Positions 17,194-46,386 of a stretch of DNA of 64,000 nt are shown piece after piece. A program made the translations under genes and the position numbers. Source of the DNA: Aquimarina algiphila. Lineage in GTDB: Bacteria > Bacteroidota > Bacteroidia > Flavobacteriales > Flavobacteriaceae. The notes under the pieces were generated by a model. The model did no database searches. It worked only from the letters and a program-made list of their open reading frames with translations, and was not told the DNA's origin. The DNA is taken from positions 1 through 64,000 of the forward strand of contig NZ_VLNR01000006.1 of the NCBI RefSeq assembly GCF_007489275.1, written 5' to 3'. Positions within the stretch are counted from its first letter, which is position 1, and each line of letters opens with the position of its first letter.

Positions 17194-17985
17194 ATGGATA
17201 TTAAAGCTTACATAGCATCTGGTATTTTAGAACTATACGTCTACGGTTCACTCTCTGAAAAAGAGAATACCGAAGTATACAAGGTGTTACAAGAATATCC
17301 TGAAGCTGTTAAAGAAGTAGAACGTATTGAAAATGCTTTACAACAATTATCAGCCGCAAAAGCTCCTGAAGATATAGAATCATTATACACTAAGGTACAA
17401 GAACAAATCCAATCTAATAATAATGTAATACCAATTACTCGTAAACGTACTAATCTGCCTGCTTACATTGGATGGGCAGCTTGTATTGCGCTATTAATTG
17501 GACTATTTATTCAATTTAACAAAAATCAAAAATTACAAAAGCAACTTGTCACGAATCAGATTGAACAAACATTACTTGAAGGAAAAATCAATATTGCAGA
17601 AGAAGACCTTTCTAAAGCCAAGTCTTTATTAAAAATATTGAGAAATAAAGATCTCATACAAGTTCCGTTAAAAGCCCAACAAGTTGATCCTACCGCTTAT
17701 GCTGCTGTTTATTGGGATAAAAATAAACAAACAGCTTATATTGATGTAGCTGGTCTTCCTACACCCCCTCCTGGAAAAGTGTATCAGGTATGGTCATTAA
17801 AACTTGACCCATTAACACCTACCAGTATGGGAGTATTGGATACGTTTAATGAGGATGATACTAAAATCTTTATACTAGCGAATCCTAATAAATCTGAAGC
17901 GTTTGGAATAACCCTAGAACCAGAAGGTGGTAGTGAATCTCCTACTTTAGAACAACTATACACCTTAGGAGTTGTAGAGTCCTAG
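17194..17985 (+). CDS. RskA-type anti-sigma factor
   Basis: A 263-residue inner-membrane protein. The cytoplasmic N-terminus (about 1-85) would bind the sigma factor, one membrane segment spans about 90-107, and a periplasmic RskA domain runs from about 160 to 263 (VYWDKNKQTAYIDVAGLP, GKVYQVWSLK, PNKSEAFGITLEPEGG). It lies directly behind the ECF sigma gene and would hold that sigma inactive until a periplasmic signal triggers proteolysis, as is known for the family. Confidence 0.9.
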   Translation: MDIKAYIASGILELYVYGSLSEKENTEVYKVLQEYPEAVKEVERIENALQQLSAAKAPEDIESLYTKVQEQIQSNNNVIPITRKRTNLPAYIGWAACIALLIGLFIQFNKNQKLQKQLVTNQIEQTLLEGKINIAEEDLSKAKSLLKILRNKDLIQVPLKAQQVDPTAYAAVYWDKNKQTAYIDVAGLPTPPPGKVYQVWSLKLDPLTPTSMGVLDTFNEDDTKIFILANPNKSEAFGITLEPEGGSESPTLEQLYTLGVVES

Positions 17986-18025
17986 AAGAATTAATGAAAA
18001 TCAGATTAAAATAGTCATACTAACG

Positions 18026-18514
18026 TTAATGAGTTTCTATTTTTATCGGTTTCTTTCCTAATTGATAGCTATCGAGAATTTCTTTAACTTCTTTTTTTGT
18101 CAATATTTTTATTTCGGTTTTTTTAACCGTTTCTTCTTCAGACATCATTGATCTCATTAAAACTAACTTAAAAGCTTCTTTCCTTTTTTCTACCTGATCA
18201 TCTCCTTTATTTTTTAAAACAAAATTTTTATATGATTCAGCCATAGCTAACCAAACCTCAATCTCATTATCAGGGTTTTGATCTCTCTTAAAATTAGTAA
18301 TTGTCTCATCGAGAGATATAGGATATACTTCTAAAAAAGTGTCATGAATTGTTCTAATATGATCTAATTGTTTATCTGTCAATGATTCATTTACAATAGG
18401 ACCGGGCGTTAATTTCTCTACTTCGATTTCCTGATAATCAGAATTTTCCTTTTTTGTTTCCTGACAGGAAACAATAGTAATAATAATTATCAATAGAAAT
18501 ATATAGTTTTTCAT
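18026..18514 (-). CDS. Hypothetical lipoprotein
   Basis: A 162-residue protein with a lipoprotein signal peptide (lipobox IVSC, cysteine 17). The mature part is helical and charged (DKQLDHIRTIHDTFLEVYP, WLAMAESYKNFVLKNKG) and resembles no family I can name. The gene is convergent with the anti-sigma gene and stands alone between two terminator or promoter regions. Its composition matches the neighbours, so it is probably real. Confidence 0.75.
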   Translation of the reverse strand: MKNYIFLLIIIITIVSCQETKKENSDYQEIEVEKLTPGPIVNESLTDKQLDHIRTIHDTFLEVYPISLDETITNFKRDQNPDNEIEVWLAMAESYKNFVLKNKGDDQVEKRKEAFKLVLMRSMMSEEETVKKTEIKILTKKEVKEILDSYQLGKKPIKIETH

Positions 18515-18623
18515 AATGTGAGTTTGACCTAGATAAATGTATTATACACACCTATTTACATTTGTTTTTCTAAATAAGTTGTAATATCCACAGATATACA
18601 AAGGTAATTTAAATATAAAAACA

Positions 18624-18661
18624 AGAAAAGCTTGTCTGCGCCCCTGCAGATAAGCTTTTCT
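18624..18661 (-). terminator. Terminator of the DUF4331/TPR/barrel operon
   Basis: A 16-bp stem (AGAAAAGCTTGTCTGC / GCAGATAAGCTTTTCT, one G-U pair) with a 6-base loop lies downstream of the leftward stop at 18738. On the minus strand it is followed by TCTTGTTTTTAT. Confidence 0.8.
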
Positions 18662-18737
18662 AAACATCAAAAAACAAACATCAAATTAGTTCTATTGTAC
18701 TGGTTTCAGTTATTTTTTAAAACCTAAGTAAGTGTAA

Positions 18738-19811
18738 TTAAAAACTATATGTTATTCTAGCTTCAAAAGTAAATGGAGTATCAGGCGTAAAATAAATTCC
18801 TTCTGTTTCAGCTTCTAATTCACCGGTTAACCTAGATGCACCGGCCAACCTTGGATCATTGTATGTTCCTCCAAATATATTTTCTACACCAATACCAAAA
18901 TCGAAGTTTTTCCAGGTATAATTAATTTCTGCATCAGCAACTAAATACTCTTGATTTATATCATAATTAGTGGTAAGCCCATCTTGAAAATATCTATACA
19001 TTATTTTTCCAGAGAAATTTTTATAATTCTCAACACCTATACCTCCTTCGGCAACAAACTCATCATTAAATTGTGTATTATCTCCTTCGTTGAATGATTC
19101 TTTACCCCCAAATACATATCCAATATCGGTATCCAGATATAACCAATCATTAACTTGATATCTACTACTAAAATCTAACCCAGTATTTTTGTTTTTCCCA
19201 TTAAATACTGCGATCTCCTCATCTTCAATATATTCAAACTCTTGATCAAAATTAAGATACCACAATGTTGTATTTAAAGAAATCCTAGAGGACAATTGCC
19301 AATCCATCCCTATATCCAACGCATAAATGCTATTTATTTTTTTTTCTTTCATATTAACAACTGCATCTTGATCAATATTACTTTTAATTCCTATTATTGA
19401 CTTTATGAAAAAATTAAGGTCATCATTCTTTTTATATAGGATACTTAATCCAGGAATAAGTAAAGATTGAAAAGAGGCTTGACTCTCAAAATCTTCATCA
19501 ATATTTCTAAAATAATCTATCTGTACCTCGGGTACTACTTCAAATATTCCAAAATCCATTCCTGTATAATTGATAGTACTTGCTTTATATTGAAGCGTAC
19601 CTGTATTTAATATTTTCATCAACGAATTTGTTGTTAAAGTAGATATACTGGATTGATACTCTATTACTTTGGGTAATTTATCTAGACCTAAAGAAAAATT
19701 TTCCTCCACCCAAGTCTTGGTTCCTTTTTCAACTCTACTATCTTGAGATTGATACTGCGCATGAGTACTCCAATAACATATCAGTATCAATATGAATATA
19801 AGATGTCTCAT
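18738..19811 (-). CDS. Outer-membrane beta-barrel protein, TonB-receptor-like but without a plug domain
   Basis: A 357-residue exported protein with a signal peptide (1-18, ending THAQ). The rest is a series of alternating amphipathic strands ending in an aromatic C-terminus (FEARITYSF), the usual signal of an outer-membrane barrel. The strands resemble the C-terminal part of TonB-dependent receptors (for example WKNFDFGIGVENIFGGTYND), but no plug or carboxypeptidase-like domain precedes them. It is the last gene of the leftward operon, 6 bases after the TPR lipoprotein, and may form a complex with the exported products upstream (inference). Confidence 0.75.
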   Translation of the reverse strand: MRHLIFILILICYWSTHAQYQSQDSRVEKGTKTWVEENFSLGLDKLPKVIEYQSSISTLTTNSLMKILNTGTLQYKASTINYTGMDFGIFEVVPEVQIDYFRNIDEDFESQASFQSLLIPGLSILYKKNDDLNFFIKSIIGIKSNIDQDAVVNMKEKKINSIYALDIGMDWQLSSRISLNTTLWYLNFDQEFEYIEDEEIAVFNGKNKNTGLDFSSRYQVNDWLYLDTDIGYVFGGKESFNEGDNTQFNDEFVAEGGIGVENYKNFSGKIMYRYFQDGLTTNYDINQEYLVADAEINYTWKNFDFGIGVENIFGGTYNDPRLAGASRLTGELEAETEGIYFTPDTPFTFEARITYSF

Positions 19812-43903: not shown

Positions 43904-44216
43904 AATATTATTAATTTTAAAATTAATGATTTGTTTTTTATTATATAATTACAGAAACGGTTTTCTTTTTTATTCAATCCAAAATCAATAGCATTTTTAT
44001 ATAGTACTTCTATCTTATTACAATAAGAAATAAGTACATACCATCAATTTGATATTGATTAATAAAATTTATGTTGAAAATCCGATTACTGGGTAGGATA
44101 GTTGTATCGAATAATGTTACAATAGTACTACATTTTTTTGATAGAACGTATACGGTTATCGCGTACAATATTTACGCTACAATGTAATTAATTAAAAATA
44201 AGCGAAGTAGAATAAC
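43904..44216. other. Intergenic region upstream of the small peptide gene
   Basis: AT-rich DNA with no supported open frame. It should contain the promoter of the leftward peptide/GLPGLI operon, but no clear CAAAnnTA box was found. Confidence 0.4.
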
Positions 44217-44254
44217 AAAAAACAGAATACTAAATAAAAAGTATTCTGTTTTTT
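44217..44254. terminator. Terminator after the helical-protein gene, perfect 15-bp stem
   Basis: Arms AAAAAACAGAATACT and AGTATTCTGTTTTTT enclose an 8-base loop. The A/T-runs at both ends would allow action on either strand. It lies just beyond the leftward stop at 44276. Confidence 0.88.
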
Positions 44255-44275
44255 GATCATCATCAAAACCACCTA

Positions 44276-44956
44276 CTATTCTTCAATAGTATCATTACCC
44301 GATGTATTTCTAGATGGTGGTCGGTATAATTCTCGTTTGGCAGCTTGATCTTCGAATACATTATCTGCTGCTGCATTGATCTTACGCAATATTGCATGCA
44401 AATTGTTTAATCGTTCTACACGATCTGCTGTATCTACAGTACGTGTTCCTTTTTTTTGTTCTTGTTCTTTATTAGCAACCCGTAAAGTTTCTGCTAATAC
44501 CTGTGATTGATCGAGCAACTCAGCAGGTGCCCCTGCTTTTTCAAGTTCTATGTAATATTGTTTAATGGTATCTTTAAGCCCTTCCATATATTGGATCATC
44601 TTGGTTTGATTATCTTTTATTTTAGTAAACCCACCGATACCAAATTGTTTTTGTATGGCTTTTTTGCCAGGAAACGCATCTAACACCCAATATTTTAATC
44701 GTTTAAAATACTTCTGGCAAGCTTGCATAGCTTCTTCTACAACCTCTGTTTTTTGTCTTAATTGTGCCAGGTTAATGTTGTCTCCTCCTTCTGCCAGGGC
44801 ATTATCTACCATTTTTTCAAGAGTAGTCAAAAAATCCTGATTTAATTTTTTATCAAATGCAGAGAATGCCTTAATATCTGCTTTTAAATGTTCTGCGGTA
44901 GTATCTCCCCATTCTAATAGCGAACTGTCACTATATGGATAGTTTCTTCTTGACAT
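44276..44956 (-). CDS. Hypothetical helical protein
   Basis: A 226-residue soluble protein without signal or membrane segment. It is almost wholly helical and charged (KLNQDFLTTLEKMVDNALAE, LRQKTEVVEEAMQACQKYFK, RVERLNNLHAILRKINAAAD), probably a helical bundle or coiled coil. I do not recognise a family. Codon use matches the neighbours and a good terminator follows, so the gene is likely real. The repeat island lies upstream of it. Confidence 0.8.
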   Translation of the reverse strand: MSRRNYPYSDSSLLEWGDTTAEHLKADIKAFSAFDKKLNQDFLTTLEKMVDNALAEGGDNINLAQLRQKTEVVEEAMQACQKYFKRLKYWVLDAFPGKKAIQKQFGIGGFTKIKDNQTKMIQYMEGLKDTIKQYYIELEKAGAPAELLDQSQVLAETLRVANKEQEQKKGTRTVDTADRVERLNNLHAILRKINAAADNVFEDQAAKRELYRPPSRNTSGNDTIEE

Positions 44957-45074
44957 ATTATATATTTAAGTGGTTAAAATTACTTGTGAATATACAATAA
45001 AGTTTATATTAACAAAATCTAGGTGATCTCTTATGTAAAGTAAAAAGTGTGTAACCTTTATATTGTTATTTTGG

Positions 45075-45094
45075 ATTCCAGCCTACGCTGGAAT
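45075..45094. repeat. Palindromic intergenic repeat element
   Basis: ATTCCAGC CTAC GCTGGAAT is an 8-bp stem with a 4-base loop. It resembles the short dispersed GGATTCC...GGAATGAC palindromes seen in many bacterial genomes. Confidence 0.55.
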
Positions 45095-45145
45095 GACAAA
45101 AACATTGCAAAATGTATTGCTAAAGATCAATACTAAGTTGTTATT

Positions 45146-45481
45146 TTTTTCTATTATGTTGCATCTCTTACTCTATTTGTTTTCAACCTTATTCACCATG
45201 TTGTAACTCTTATCTTACTTGTTGTAGGTCTTACTTGATCTGTTGTAGGTATTGCTCTACTTGTTGTTAATTTTACTTGATATGTTGTAGCTTCTACTCT
45301 ACTTGTTGTCAGCTTTACTTAAAATGTTGTAGGTATTACTCTACTTGTTGTTAGCTTTACTTACTATGTTGTAGGCGTTACTCTACTTGTTGTTAGCTTT
45401 ACTTACTATGTTGTAGGTATTGCTTTACTTATTGTTAACCTTACTTGATATGTTGTAGGTGCTACTCTACTTGTTGCAAAA
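45146..45481. repeat. 21-bp tandem repeat array, 16 units, with 42-bp alternation
   Basis: Sixteen consecutive 21-base units fill 336 bases without interruption; the first unit is degenerate. Two types alternate over most of the array, one like TTACTCTACTTGTTGTTAGC and one like TTACTTACTATGTTGTAGG, giving a 42-bp higher-order period. The units diverge from each other by several bases. Translation meets stop codons in all frames, so the array does not encode a protein now. It is neither a CRISPR (no spacers) nor an inverted repeat. It sits between two leftward genes and near two palindromic repeats. Confidence 0.9.
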
Positions 45482-45552
45482 AAACCTTAGTATATTGTCG
45501 ATAATTCTCACTTTATATTTTCCAAGCTCCAGCGTCTAGCTTCATAAAACTG

Positions 45553-45575
45553 TCTTCGACAAGATCAGACTGACA
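45553..45575. repeat. Short dispersed-type repeat fragment
   Basis: The stretch around TTCGACAAGATCAGACTGAC resembles an intergenic repeat motif common in Bacteroidetes genomes. Only one copy is present in the window, so the call rests on general resemblance. Confidence 0.3.
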
Positions 45576-45669
45576 AAGGATACACTGTTTTCTTCTAACT
45601 TCAGTCTTCCAACATCTTTCTTCTTTTCGTTTTTCACTTTAAACTTTTCACTTCTTTATACTTTTACCT

Positions 45670-46386
45670 TTAAAGCTTCTGCGTATAATAATTATAATCT
45701 GCTATTACCTTATCCACAAATTGTAATGGTTTCTCCTGAGGGGTCACATCCATCAAAGTACTTACTTTTTTTGAAAGTTCCAGAATGATATTATGATCTG
45801 CATTTCGTCTTGCATCGGTATAAATGGTTTTGATTTTTCGCATTTCTTCATCACTAAAAACTGTAACCTGTGGATATACCGCTATATAATCGTCTGGGAT
45901 ATCAACAAGTATAGTCTCATGAAATTGTACCCTTTGTCGCTCACTAATTATGGTCGTACCTGCAGCCATATCTCCTAAACGTTGCCCTTTTCCTCCCAAT
46001 AAAATAGAGACTACCGCTATTCCTCCAAAAGCAAAAGAAATATCCAACAAACGAAGTAACCATCTAATTAAATAATTAGAAAAAGCAGGTCTTGACCCAT
46101 CTAATTTTGCCACCTTTATTTTCATTGCTGCTTTACCTGGAGTCTTACCATCCCAAAATGTTTCCCACAATAAAAAATATAAAAAAACCGGCAAACTTAA
46201 AACTAACCAATATGTCCATTGATCTCCAGGATCCAATCCTAAAACCCCAAGAATAAATATAGTAACAATAAAATACCCTATAATAATTAAGAGATCAATA
46301 AGATATGCCAATATTCGCTCTCCTATTCCAGCAGCATTTTGCTGTATACTAACATTTTGAGCCGTTTCTATTTGAAAATTATCCAT
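45670..46386 (-). CDS. RDD family membrane protein
   Basis: A 238-residue protein whose RDD domain (about 18-155) shows GIGERILAYLIDLLIIIGYF, the second membrane segment and DGKTPGKAAMKIKVAKLDGS, followed by RWLLRLLDI. Three membrane segments are expected. The rest (about 160-238) is a soluble tail. It is divergent from the SpoIIM/MoxR cluster with only 37 bases between starts, as RDD genes often are in Bacteroidetes. Some RDD proteins are Na+ or proton antiporters; the role here is unknown. Confidence 0.87.
   Translation of the reverse strand: MDNFQIETAQNVSIQQNAAGIGERILAYLIDLLIIIGYFIVTIFILGVLGLDPGDQWTYWLVLSLPVFLYFLLWETFWDGKTPGKAAMKIKVAKLDGSRPAFSNYLIRWLLRLLDISFAFGGIAVVSILLGGKGQRLGDMAAGTTIISERQRVQFHETILVDIPDDYIAVYPQVTVFSDEEMRKIKTIYTDARRNADHNIILELSKKVSTLMDVTPQEKPLQFVDKVIADYNYYTQKL

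Follow-up and report, generated by a model that had tools for sequence, protein, structure and literature searches.

An earlier note on this DNA had described a tandem array in the window, which is the whole 64,000-nt stretch of the Aquimarina algiphila genome analysed here. That note overlooked that the array belongs to a cassette of which a gene is the other half; the array starts 190 bp upstream of the start codon of this partner gene. The features of the locus are listed below; here and throughout, L-numbers label DNA loci around homologues or relatives and G-numbers label genomes.

45146..45481, minus strand: tandem array of ~16 units, 21/42-bp period, two alternating unit types (TRF, register, lag identities, z = 28)
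44276..44956, minus strand: partner gene, 226 aa, product predicted to be all-helical and two-lobed, no Pfam family (open reading frame; homologues mostly with upstream arrays)
44227..45669: stretch unaligned with cassette-less relatives, ~1.44 kb, holding array, gene and short flanks, its ends approximate and not to the base (alignments to L062, L063, L064)
44216..44255: 16-bp perfect inverted repeat with 8-nt loop, by its look a probable terminator 3′ of the partner gene (repeat search)
45670..46386, minus strand: RDD-family gene, a conserved flank outside the cassette (Pfam PF06271)

Within 45155-45476 TRF returned period 21, as the earlier note had anticipated, together with periods of 42, 84 and 126. 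Sixteen consecutive 21-mers from 45146 are in register, bearing out the sixteen head-to-tail units described previously, with the first unit degenerate and ~15 good units. Identity within the array was 0.765 at lag 42, compared with 0.575 at lag 21, 0.586 at lag 63 and 0.23-0.39 at the remaining lags between 10 and 69, indicating two alternating unit types and the 42-bp higher period that had been proposed. The array had z = 28 when compared with 60 first-order Markov resamples of the upstream region, none of which scored as high. All six frames of the array contain stops, and it is non-coding now, as had also been stated; the threonine-rich block read on its minus strand is present (ATSRVAPTTYQVRLT) but is 15 residues long, not 14. 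Both flanking genes do run leftward, but the 'repeat island' said to lie between them is weak, because the only other repeat feature seen there by eye is a short palindrome at 45073-45097. This palindrome (GGATTCCAGC..GCTGGAATGAC) lies between array and gene, lacks a T-run on the gene's sense side, and is of a kind that we take to resemble a dispersed bacterial palindrome. No Rfam family matched in the window at gathering score.

The RDD gene was matched in 47 of 52 genus genomes; the 226-aa gene is rare in the genus (6/52). Gene and array are both absent at the RDD site in three of 19 compared relatives (L062, L063 and L064), where the RDD gene is followed, after ~150-250 bp, by sequence that in the window lies past the 226-aa gene. 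Alignments to these three relatives stop at window positions 45670-45671 and restart at 44227, 44176 and 44201, respectively, so that the unaligned insert comprises the array and the gene with short flanks, ~1.44 kb in all. The remaining 16 relatives gave no alignment at all after the RDD gene. Among 23 named loci around the family gene, no other cluster of open reading frames was found in more than six.

No convincing second copy of the array sequence was detected by blastn in the own genome and 55 relatives, so the search for the same unit proposed in the earlier note failed at the level of sequence; what recurs is the architecture of gene plus array. The own genome holds three family copies, namely the window, L094 (64% identical) and L175, each with its own array, and the units differ among the three. 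Taking the absence of same-unit copies as a refutation, as that note had suggested, would have misled, since the architecture recurs and the genome itself carries two further gene + array pairs.

The partner protein and its relatives

No Pfam family scored above its cut-off in scans of the window and of four family members, and no known DNA-binding domain was recognised by Pfam or structure comparison. The AlphaFold2 model, built with 42 homologues (mean pLDDT 91.9, pTM 0.67), is all helices, and its helix order 10-34, 40-56, 58-94, 99-104 repeats as 117-133 plus 135-140, 145-200, 205-209. Profile alignment of the N half with the C half over ~100 columns gave a probability of 94.3-95.7 with all 42 sequences, 98.4-98.8 in the PQLLE subset and 0.3 in the Aquimarina-type subset. 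Together, profile and model suggest an internally duplicated protein with two helical lobes. Proteins of the family are mildly acidic (median pI 5.75 and net charge -4, compared with a median pI of 6.27 for open reading frames of the own genome), which is unusual for a DNA binder.

The best profile match to a solved structure had E 0.21, and Foldseek found no match in the PDB at E <= 0.001, nor did the first model against viral structures. At the top of the VIA matches stood a LemA protein (Z 9.4, 121 aligned, rmsd 3.0); the McpS sensor domain aligned with most of the protein (Z 8.5, 180 aligned, rmsd 3.5). Such scores fall in the range given as common for helical proteins. Nop56/58 was among many weak helical structure matches (Z ~7), the window protein had a weak match to Cas11a (E 0.018), and PHROGs and Pfam matches were all weak.

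A profile of 12 proteins identified 23 relatives in named genomes, belonging to Aquimarina, Reichenbachiella, Marinoscillum, and uncultured Cyclobacteriaceae, Flammeovirgaceae and Bacteroidia. Among 395 sampled Bacteroidota genomes, this profile matched 11, the NCBIfam 'PQLLE family' 10, and a profile of more distant members 19; the union of the three is 22/395, own genome included, provided that the sample was identical each time. The NCBIfam entry (NF052641, 'PQLLE family protein') belongs to the same wider protein family as the window protein, which at 30.6 bits scores below its cut-off of 80; L175, at 253.3 bits, scores above it. NF052641 had no match in 14 control genomes beyond Bacteroidota, and the term 'PQLLE' did not occur in the open-licence PMC literature searched. 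No relatives were found among 72,556 plasmid records with L177 as query, among phages with the window protein as query, or in viral contigs with the protein alignment as query.

Several members are decayed or extended. L098 (G017:C3) has a truncated gene with an intact array, L185 has a premature stop in the gene, and the gene of L251 contains two stops with the array still there. Seven long members (L161, L168, L171, L172, L173, L183 and L189) extend at the C-terminus into beta-rich sequence that resembles fibronectin type III domains; by eye the extensions of some distant members look like fibronectin type III or other beta domains, and Pfam did not call fibronectin type III on those of L161, L172, L173 and L189.

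Arrays beside the gene across the family

A period scan of 13 other homologue loci (129-base fragment L093 left out, truncated L098 counted in) identified a 42-bp array beside the gene in 10, mostly with unrelated units, and a weak 41/61-bp array in an eleventh, L100. For a wider test 60 loci were assembled; L166, L184, L190, L192 and L194 had been dropped as repeats before counting, and L089-L092, L095-L097 and L099-L102 as the same loci as named ones. Testing required at least 230 bp upstream of the gene, and L150 and L168 had too little, leaving 58 loci, which include the truncated L098, the premature-stop L185 and the near-identical pair L142/L143. With a threshold of z > 6 against 60 resampled sequences, 50 of the 58 passed, and an upstream array of 20-21 bp units is present in 49; L191 passed with a period of 33 in T-rich low-complexity sequence and is hence outside the 49. 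PQLLE members above the family cut-off that have an upstream array by this criterion are L175, L177, L178, L180, L185 and L186. Where measured (35 arrays), the arrays end 55 to 582 bp before the gene start.

The nine loci without an array by the criterion are L144, L154, L155, L156, L159, L165, L183, L189 and L191. By eye, L154 and L156 show a small number of degenerate units, of 20 and 21 bp. In L155 degenerate units lie upstream of the gene, and their motif recurs in an 18-unit array ~7 kb beyond the gene; this distant array, at 17685-18245, lies just after an open frame ending at 17747. All matches to the distant-member profile that were absent from the earlier testing were added as 22 later loci, of which 18 have an array (7/9, 9/10, and 2/3 for L257, L258 and L275) and four lack one by the criterion. 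Within this later set L258 is clear of the threshold (z 11.5) and L240 only just above it (z 6.3); L257 falls short (z 5.4), although its units are visible; and L247, which passes at z 6.4 with period 63 in apparent coding sequence, was counted as lacking an array.

As a control, 220 upstream regions were drawn at random from the 441 in the own genome and tested with 15 resamples per region (60 in the family test). Four passed, two of them being family arrays and two marginal (z 6.4 and 6.8). The DNA scanned for arrays came to 1.30 Mb, made up of the window, the 23 named loci and 0.8 Mb from the own genome (7.0 Mb in all); arrays of 20-21 bp units were found only at family genes, plus the distant one in L155. 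Three other arrays in the scanned DNA, with 16-/48-bp periods, lie off family genes, at L148:17462-17810 and at L146:17251-17683 and 18623-18879.

The best periods were 42 (31 loci), 63 (9), 21 (4), 41 (3), 40 (1) and 62 (1). At most loci the units are unrelated in sequence and range widely in base composition, yet the unit remains 20-21 bp. Unit types alternate in 15 of 35 arrays (identity at lag 42 exceeding that at lag 21 by >0.1). L265 (G096:C85:22400-24800) shows three alternating 21-bp unit types with a 63-bp higher-order period.

Conserved columns within the unit form two clusters half a unit apart. Conservation autocorrelation over 37 arrays was -0.264 at lag 5 and +0.113 at lag 10 (null -0.05, sd 0.035). 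In a spectrum with one array for each of 19 groups, conservation power at two cycles per 21 bp was 2.77 against 1.05 expected, a value reached by none of 5000 permutations; the next harmonic, at one cycle per 21 bp, was 1.53. The same power was 2.12 (p = 0.0002) in 16 later arrays, two of which have only 2.4 units and some of which may be related to those of the 19 groups. The codon signal, at seven cycles per 21 bp, was 0.67 in the 19 groups and 0.75 in the later arrays, with an expectation of 1. The earlier note had remarked that the period equals two turns of B-DNA and would suit protein binding; family periods of 20-21 bp or their multiples and the 10.5-bp recurrence of conservation agree with that suggestion, and the role itself is putative.

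Two further candidate properties were rejected. A closing inverted repeat around the array reached p <= 0.05 in 5 of 41 loci, four of them related Aquimarina arrays, and had p = 0.22 in the window. Half-sites are not mutual copies, and dyad symmetry was 0.401 against a null of 0.419. Inverted repeats of the AAATACATATACAC type flank the arrays of L094, L136, L138 and L139, which form one Aquimarina group, and a DUF805 RNA (RF03081) match lies away from the arrays at L138:13663-13732.

Array similarity tracks protein identity (Mantel r = 0.34, with 0/2000 permutations as high), and little array similarity is left below ~65% protein identity. Where similarity exceeds 0.5 and two arrays are plainly alike, both point the same way relative to the gene. 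The correspondence is loose in individual cases: the proteins of L136 and L138 are 86% identical and their arrays unlike (0.25), and those of L136 and L140 are 67% identical with arrays alike (0.82). Unlike arrays beside proteins that are >80% identical require either that specificity changes quickly or that arrays are exchanged. Six residues separate two array types, four of them at 98-112, between the lobes, and residues 101-118 score best for tracking array type (window test p = 0.11); a role of residues ~98-118 in tracking array type is suggestive only.

A candidate protein-array cassette and its alternatives

In our preferred reading, to which a probability of about 0.6 is given, the cassette protein and its array form a self-contained two-part unit, the protein attaching to that array on a single face of the DNA duplex; both the protein-array binding and the double-stranded nature of the target are inferences of ours. 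The reading draws on the gene-array linkage, the constant spacing of units whose sequence turns over, the 10.5-bp conservation rhythm, the non-coding arrays, fold scores at null on average, the relatives lacking the cassette and the internal duplication of the protein. Against it count the mild acidity of the proteins, the negative searches for a known DNA-binding domain, half-sites that are not mutual copies and show dyad symmetry below its null, the loci that lack an array, and the halves of the Aquimarina-type sequences, which do not align when taken alone. The array would be the cis-acting half of a stand-alone cassette consisting of one gene and its own 20-21 bp sites, usually directly upstream. 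The protein may row up cooperatively on the array, with a single protein on each 21 bp or, in arrays of alternating units, a pair on each 42 bp, and with each of the two tandem helical lobes contacting one duplex turn on the same face. Under this mechanism the two lobes of the modelled protein would correspond to the two contact clusters of each unit. Binding would probably regulate the gene itself, and the bound array might serve as an anchoring, pairing or segregation-like site, in the manner of direct-repeat arrays for plasmid proteins like StbA. At slightly better than even odds, the cassettes scattered through Bacteroidota share a two-lobed helical protein that polymerises on its own array in exact helical phase, with specificity turning over fast, the 21-bp geometry frozen, and each copy a private pair.

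The system nearest in working principle is StbA with its repeats on R388. Passages of PMC3098194 describe StbA as binding direct repeats in vitro, by way of which it contributes to plasmid stability, perhaps with no active motor; its sites (stbDR) are two sets of five 9-bp repeats with 2 bp spacing, on a conjugative plasmid and in an operon with stbB and stbC. The likeness lies in phased direct repeats before the gene, which for StbA are placed around its promoter (PMC3098194). The cassette differs in its 20-21 bp units, in having no neighbour conserved in more than six of 23 loci, and in the lack of a plasmid match for L177. ParR/parC-type centromeres are a further comparable system.

The cassette fits no tested known family. 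We rate it categorically new because no tested family contains it or explains its protein, geometry or function; the functional claim is putative. No paper on such a cassette was found in the open-licence PMC literature searched. If the protein does bind the array, dozens of protein-array pairs would be at hand in which sequence varies and geometry is constant, showing DNA specificity evolving under fixed helical phase. They would also be mutually independent DNA-tagging pairs, and would provide an initial clue to a protein family at present known only by a placeholder name. The locus illustrates how an intergenic minisatellite that seems 'unique' can belong, as one of two halves, to a widespread system invisible to sequence search.

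Transcription of the array, with repeat RNA rather than DNA as the protein's partner in the style of a type III toxin-antitoxin or an RNA scaffold, is an unlikely but serious alternative. Type III toxin-antitoxin systems are nearest in layout; they too place a tandem array upstream of a single small gene, as in 49/58 loci here. Passages of PMC5086642 describe ToxIN with repeats upstream of the gene that differ between systems; they also give ToxI repeats as 34-36 nt and variable in length, whereas here 20-21 is kept across proteins ~15% identical to that of the window. Two clusters per 21 nt would also suit a two-lobed binder of single-stranded RNA (or DNA), and self-complementarity is slightly below its null, as unstructured RNA might show. 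No promoter pattern is clearly enriched around the arrays, the highest count being a -7-like box upstream of the array in 9 of 39 loci against 5.5 (sd 2.0) expected. Fold predictions argue against structured RNA on average, with a mean z over 39 arrays that is close to null on both strands, at -0.27/-0.11 (consensus) and 0.11/0.08 (whole array; SE 0.14-0.19 for each), and a simple script found a terminator-like hairpin between array and gene in 0/39 loci. The absence of an Rfam match in the window points the same way.

Consensus-fold z was low in two arrays, the window (-3.9, gene's sense strand) and L175 (-4.0). On a re-run the window fold was a 4-bp stem of -2.5 kcal/mol in 4 of 6 phases, with a null near zero, and near relative L133 has no such stem on that strand; L175, which offers only 3 rows, gave a longer stem in one of its phases. 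We read both values as chance, though they count against the DNA reading. A ToxI-like pseudoknot finds no average nested-structure signal behind it, only the weak stem in the window array, in a test that is blind to pseudoknots. No ToxN/CptN/TenpN-type endoribonuclease matched four members in Pfam or NCBIfam at E up to 5, and the model is all-helical.

TIGR-Tas systems, as passages of PMC12045711 describe them, are similar in having two alternating half-units beside a single-protein gene and locus-specific repeats, and have units with ~9-nt variable spacers and a Nop-domain protein. Here, in contrast, a variable run of at least 8 columns was found in 0/28 arrays with at least 8 units, the longest run being at most 6 of 21 columns, and Pfam matches of four members at E up to 5 included no Nop family; Nop56/58 is one of the many weak structure matches mentioned above. 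Not found in these cassettes were the terminator and the endoribonuclease of type III toxin-antitoxin systems and the variable spacers of TIGR-Tas.

It is improbable that the array is an operator for another host regulator or a nucleoid protein, with the gene product itself not binding it. The position of the arrays upstream of the gene would fit such a role, but a shared regulator would be expected to keep one motif, and the units differ even among the window, L094 and L175. That array similarity follows protein identity, and that one array lies ~7 kb beyond its gene (L155), also speak against it.

Still less probable is a neutral minisatellite hitchhiking with the gene. Unit turnover and the high homogeneity of some arrays resemble ordinary tandem-repeat dynamics; 20-21 bp units and a 10.5-bp rhythm kept in 19 groups are hardly neutral, and in the DNA scanned such arrays are confined to one gene family. 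The idea of a decayed repeat-protein gene, raised in the earlier note, or of a live one encoding heptads, is scarcely credible: 21 bp would make seven codons, and open frames do run through some arrays, such as those of L136 and L139, but the array here has its stops in all frames, the 41- and 40-bp periods at some loci are not multiples of three, and the codon harmonic shows no excess.

The genus relative G026 contains the pattern TTACT-N5-TGTTGT-N5-TTACT 37 times in forward and 10 times in reverse orientation, an asymmetry that may mark another array.
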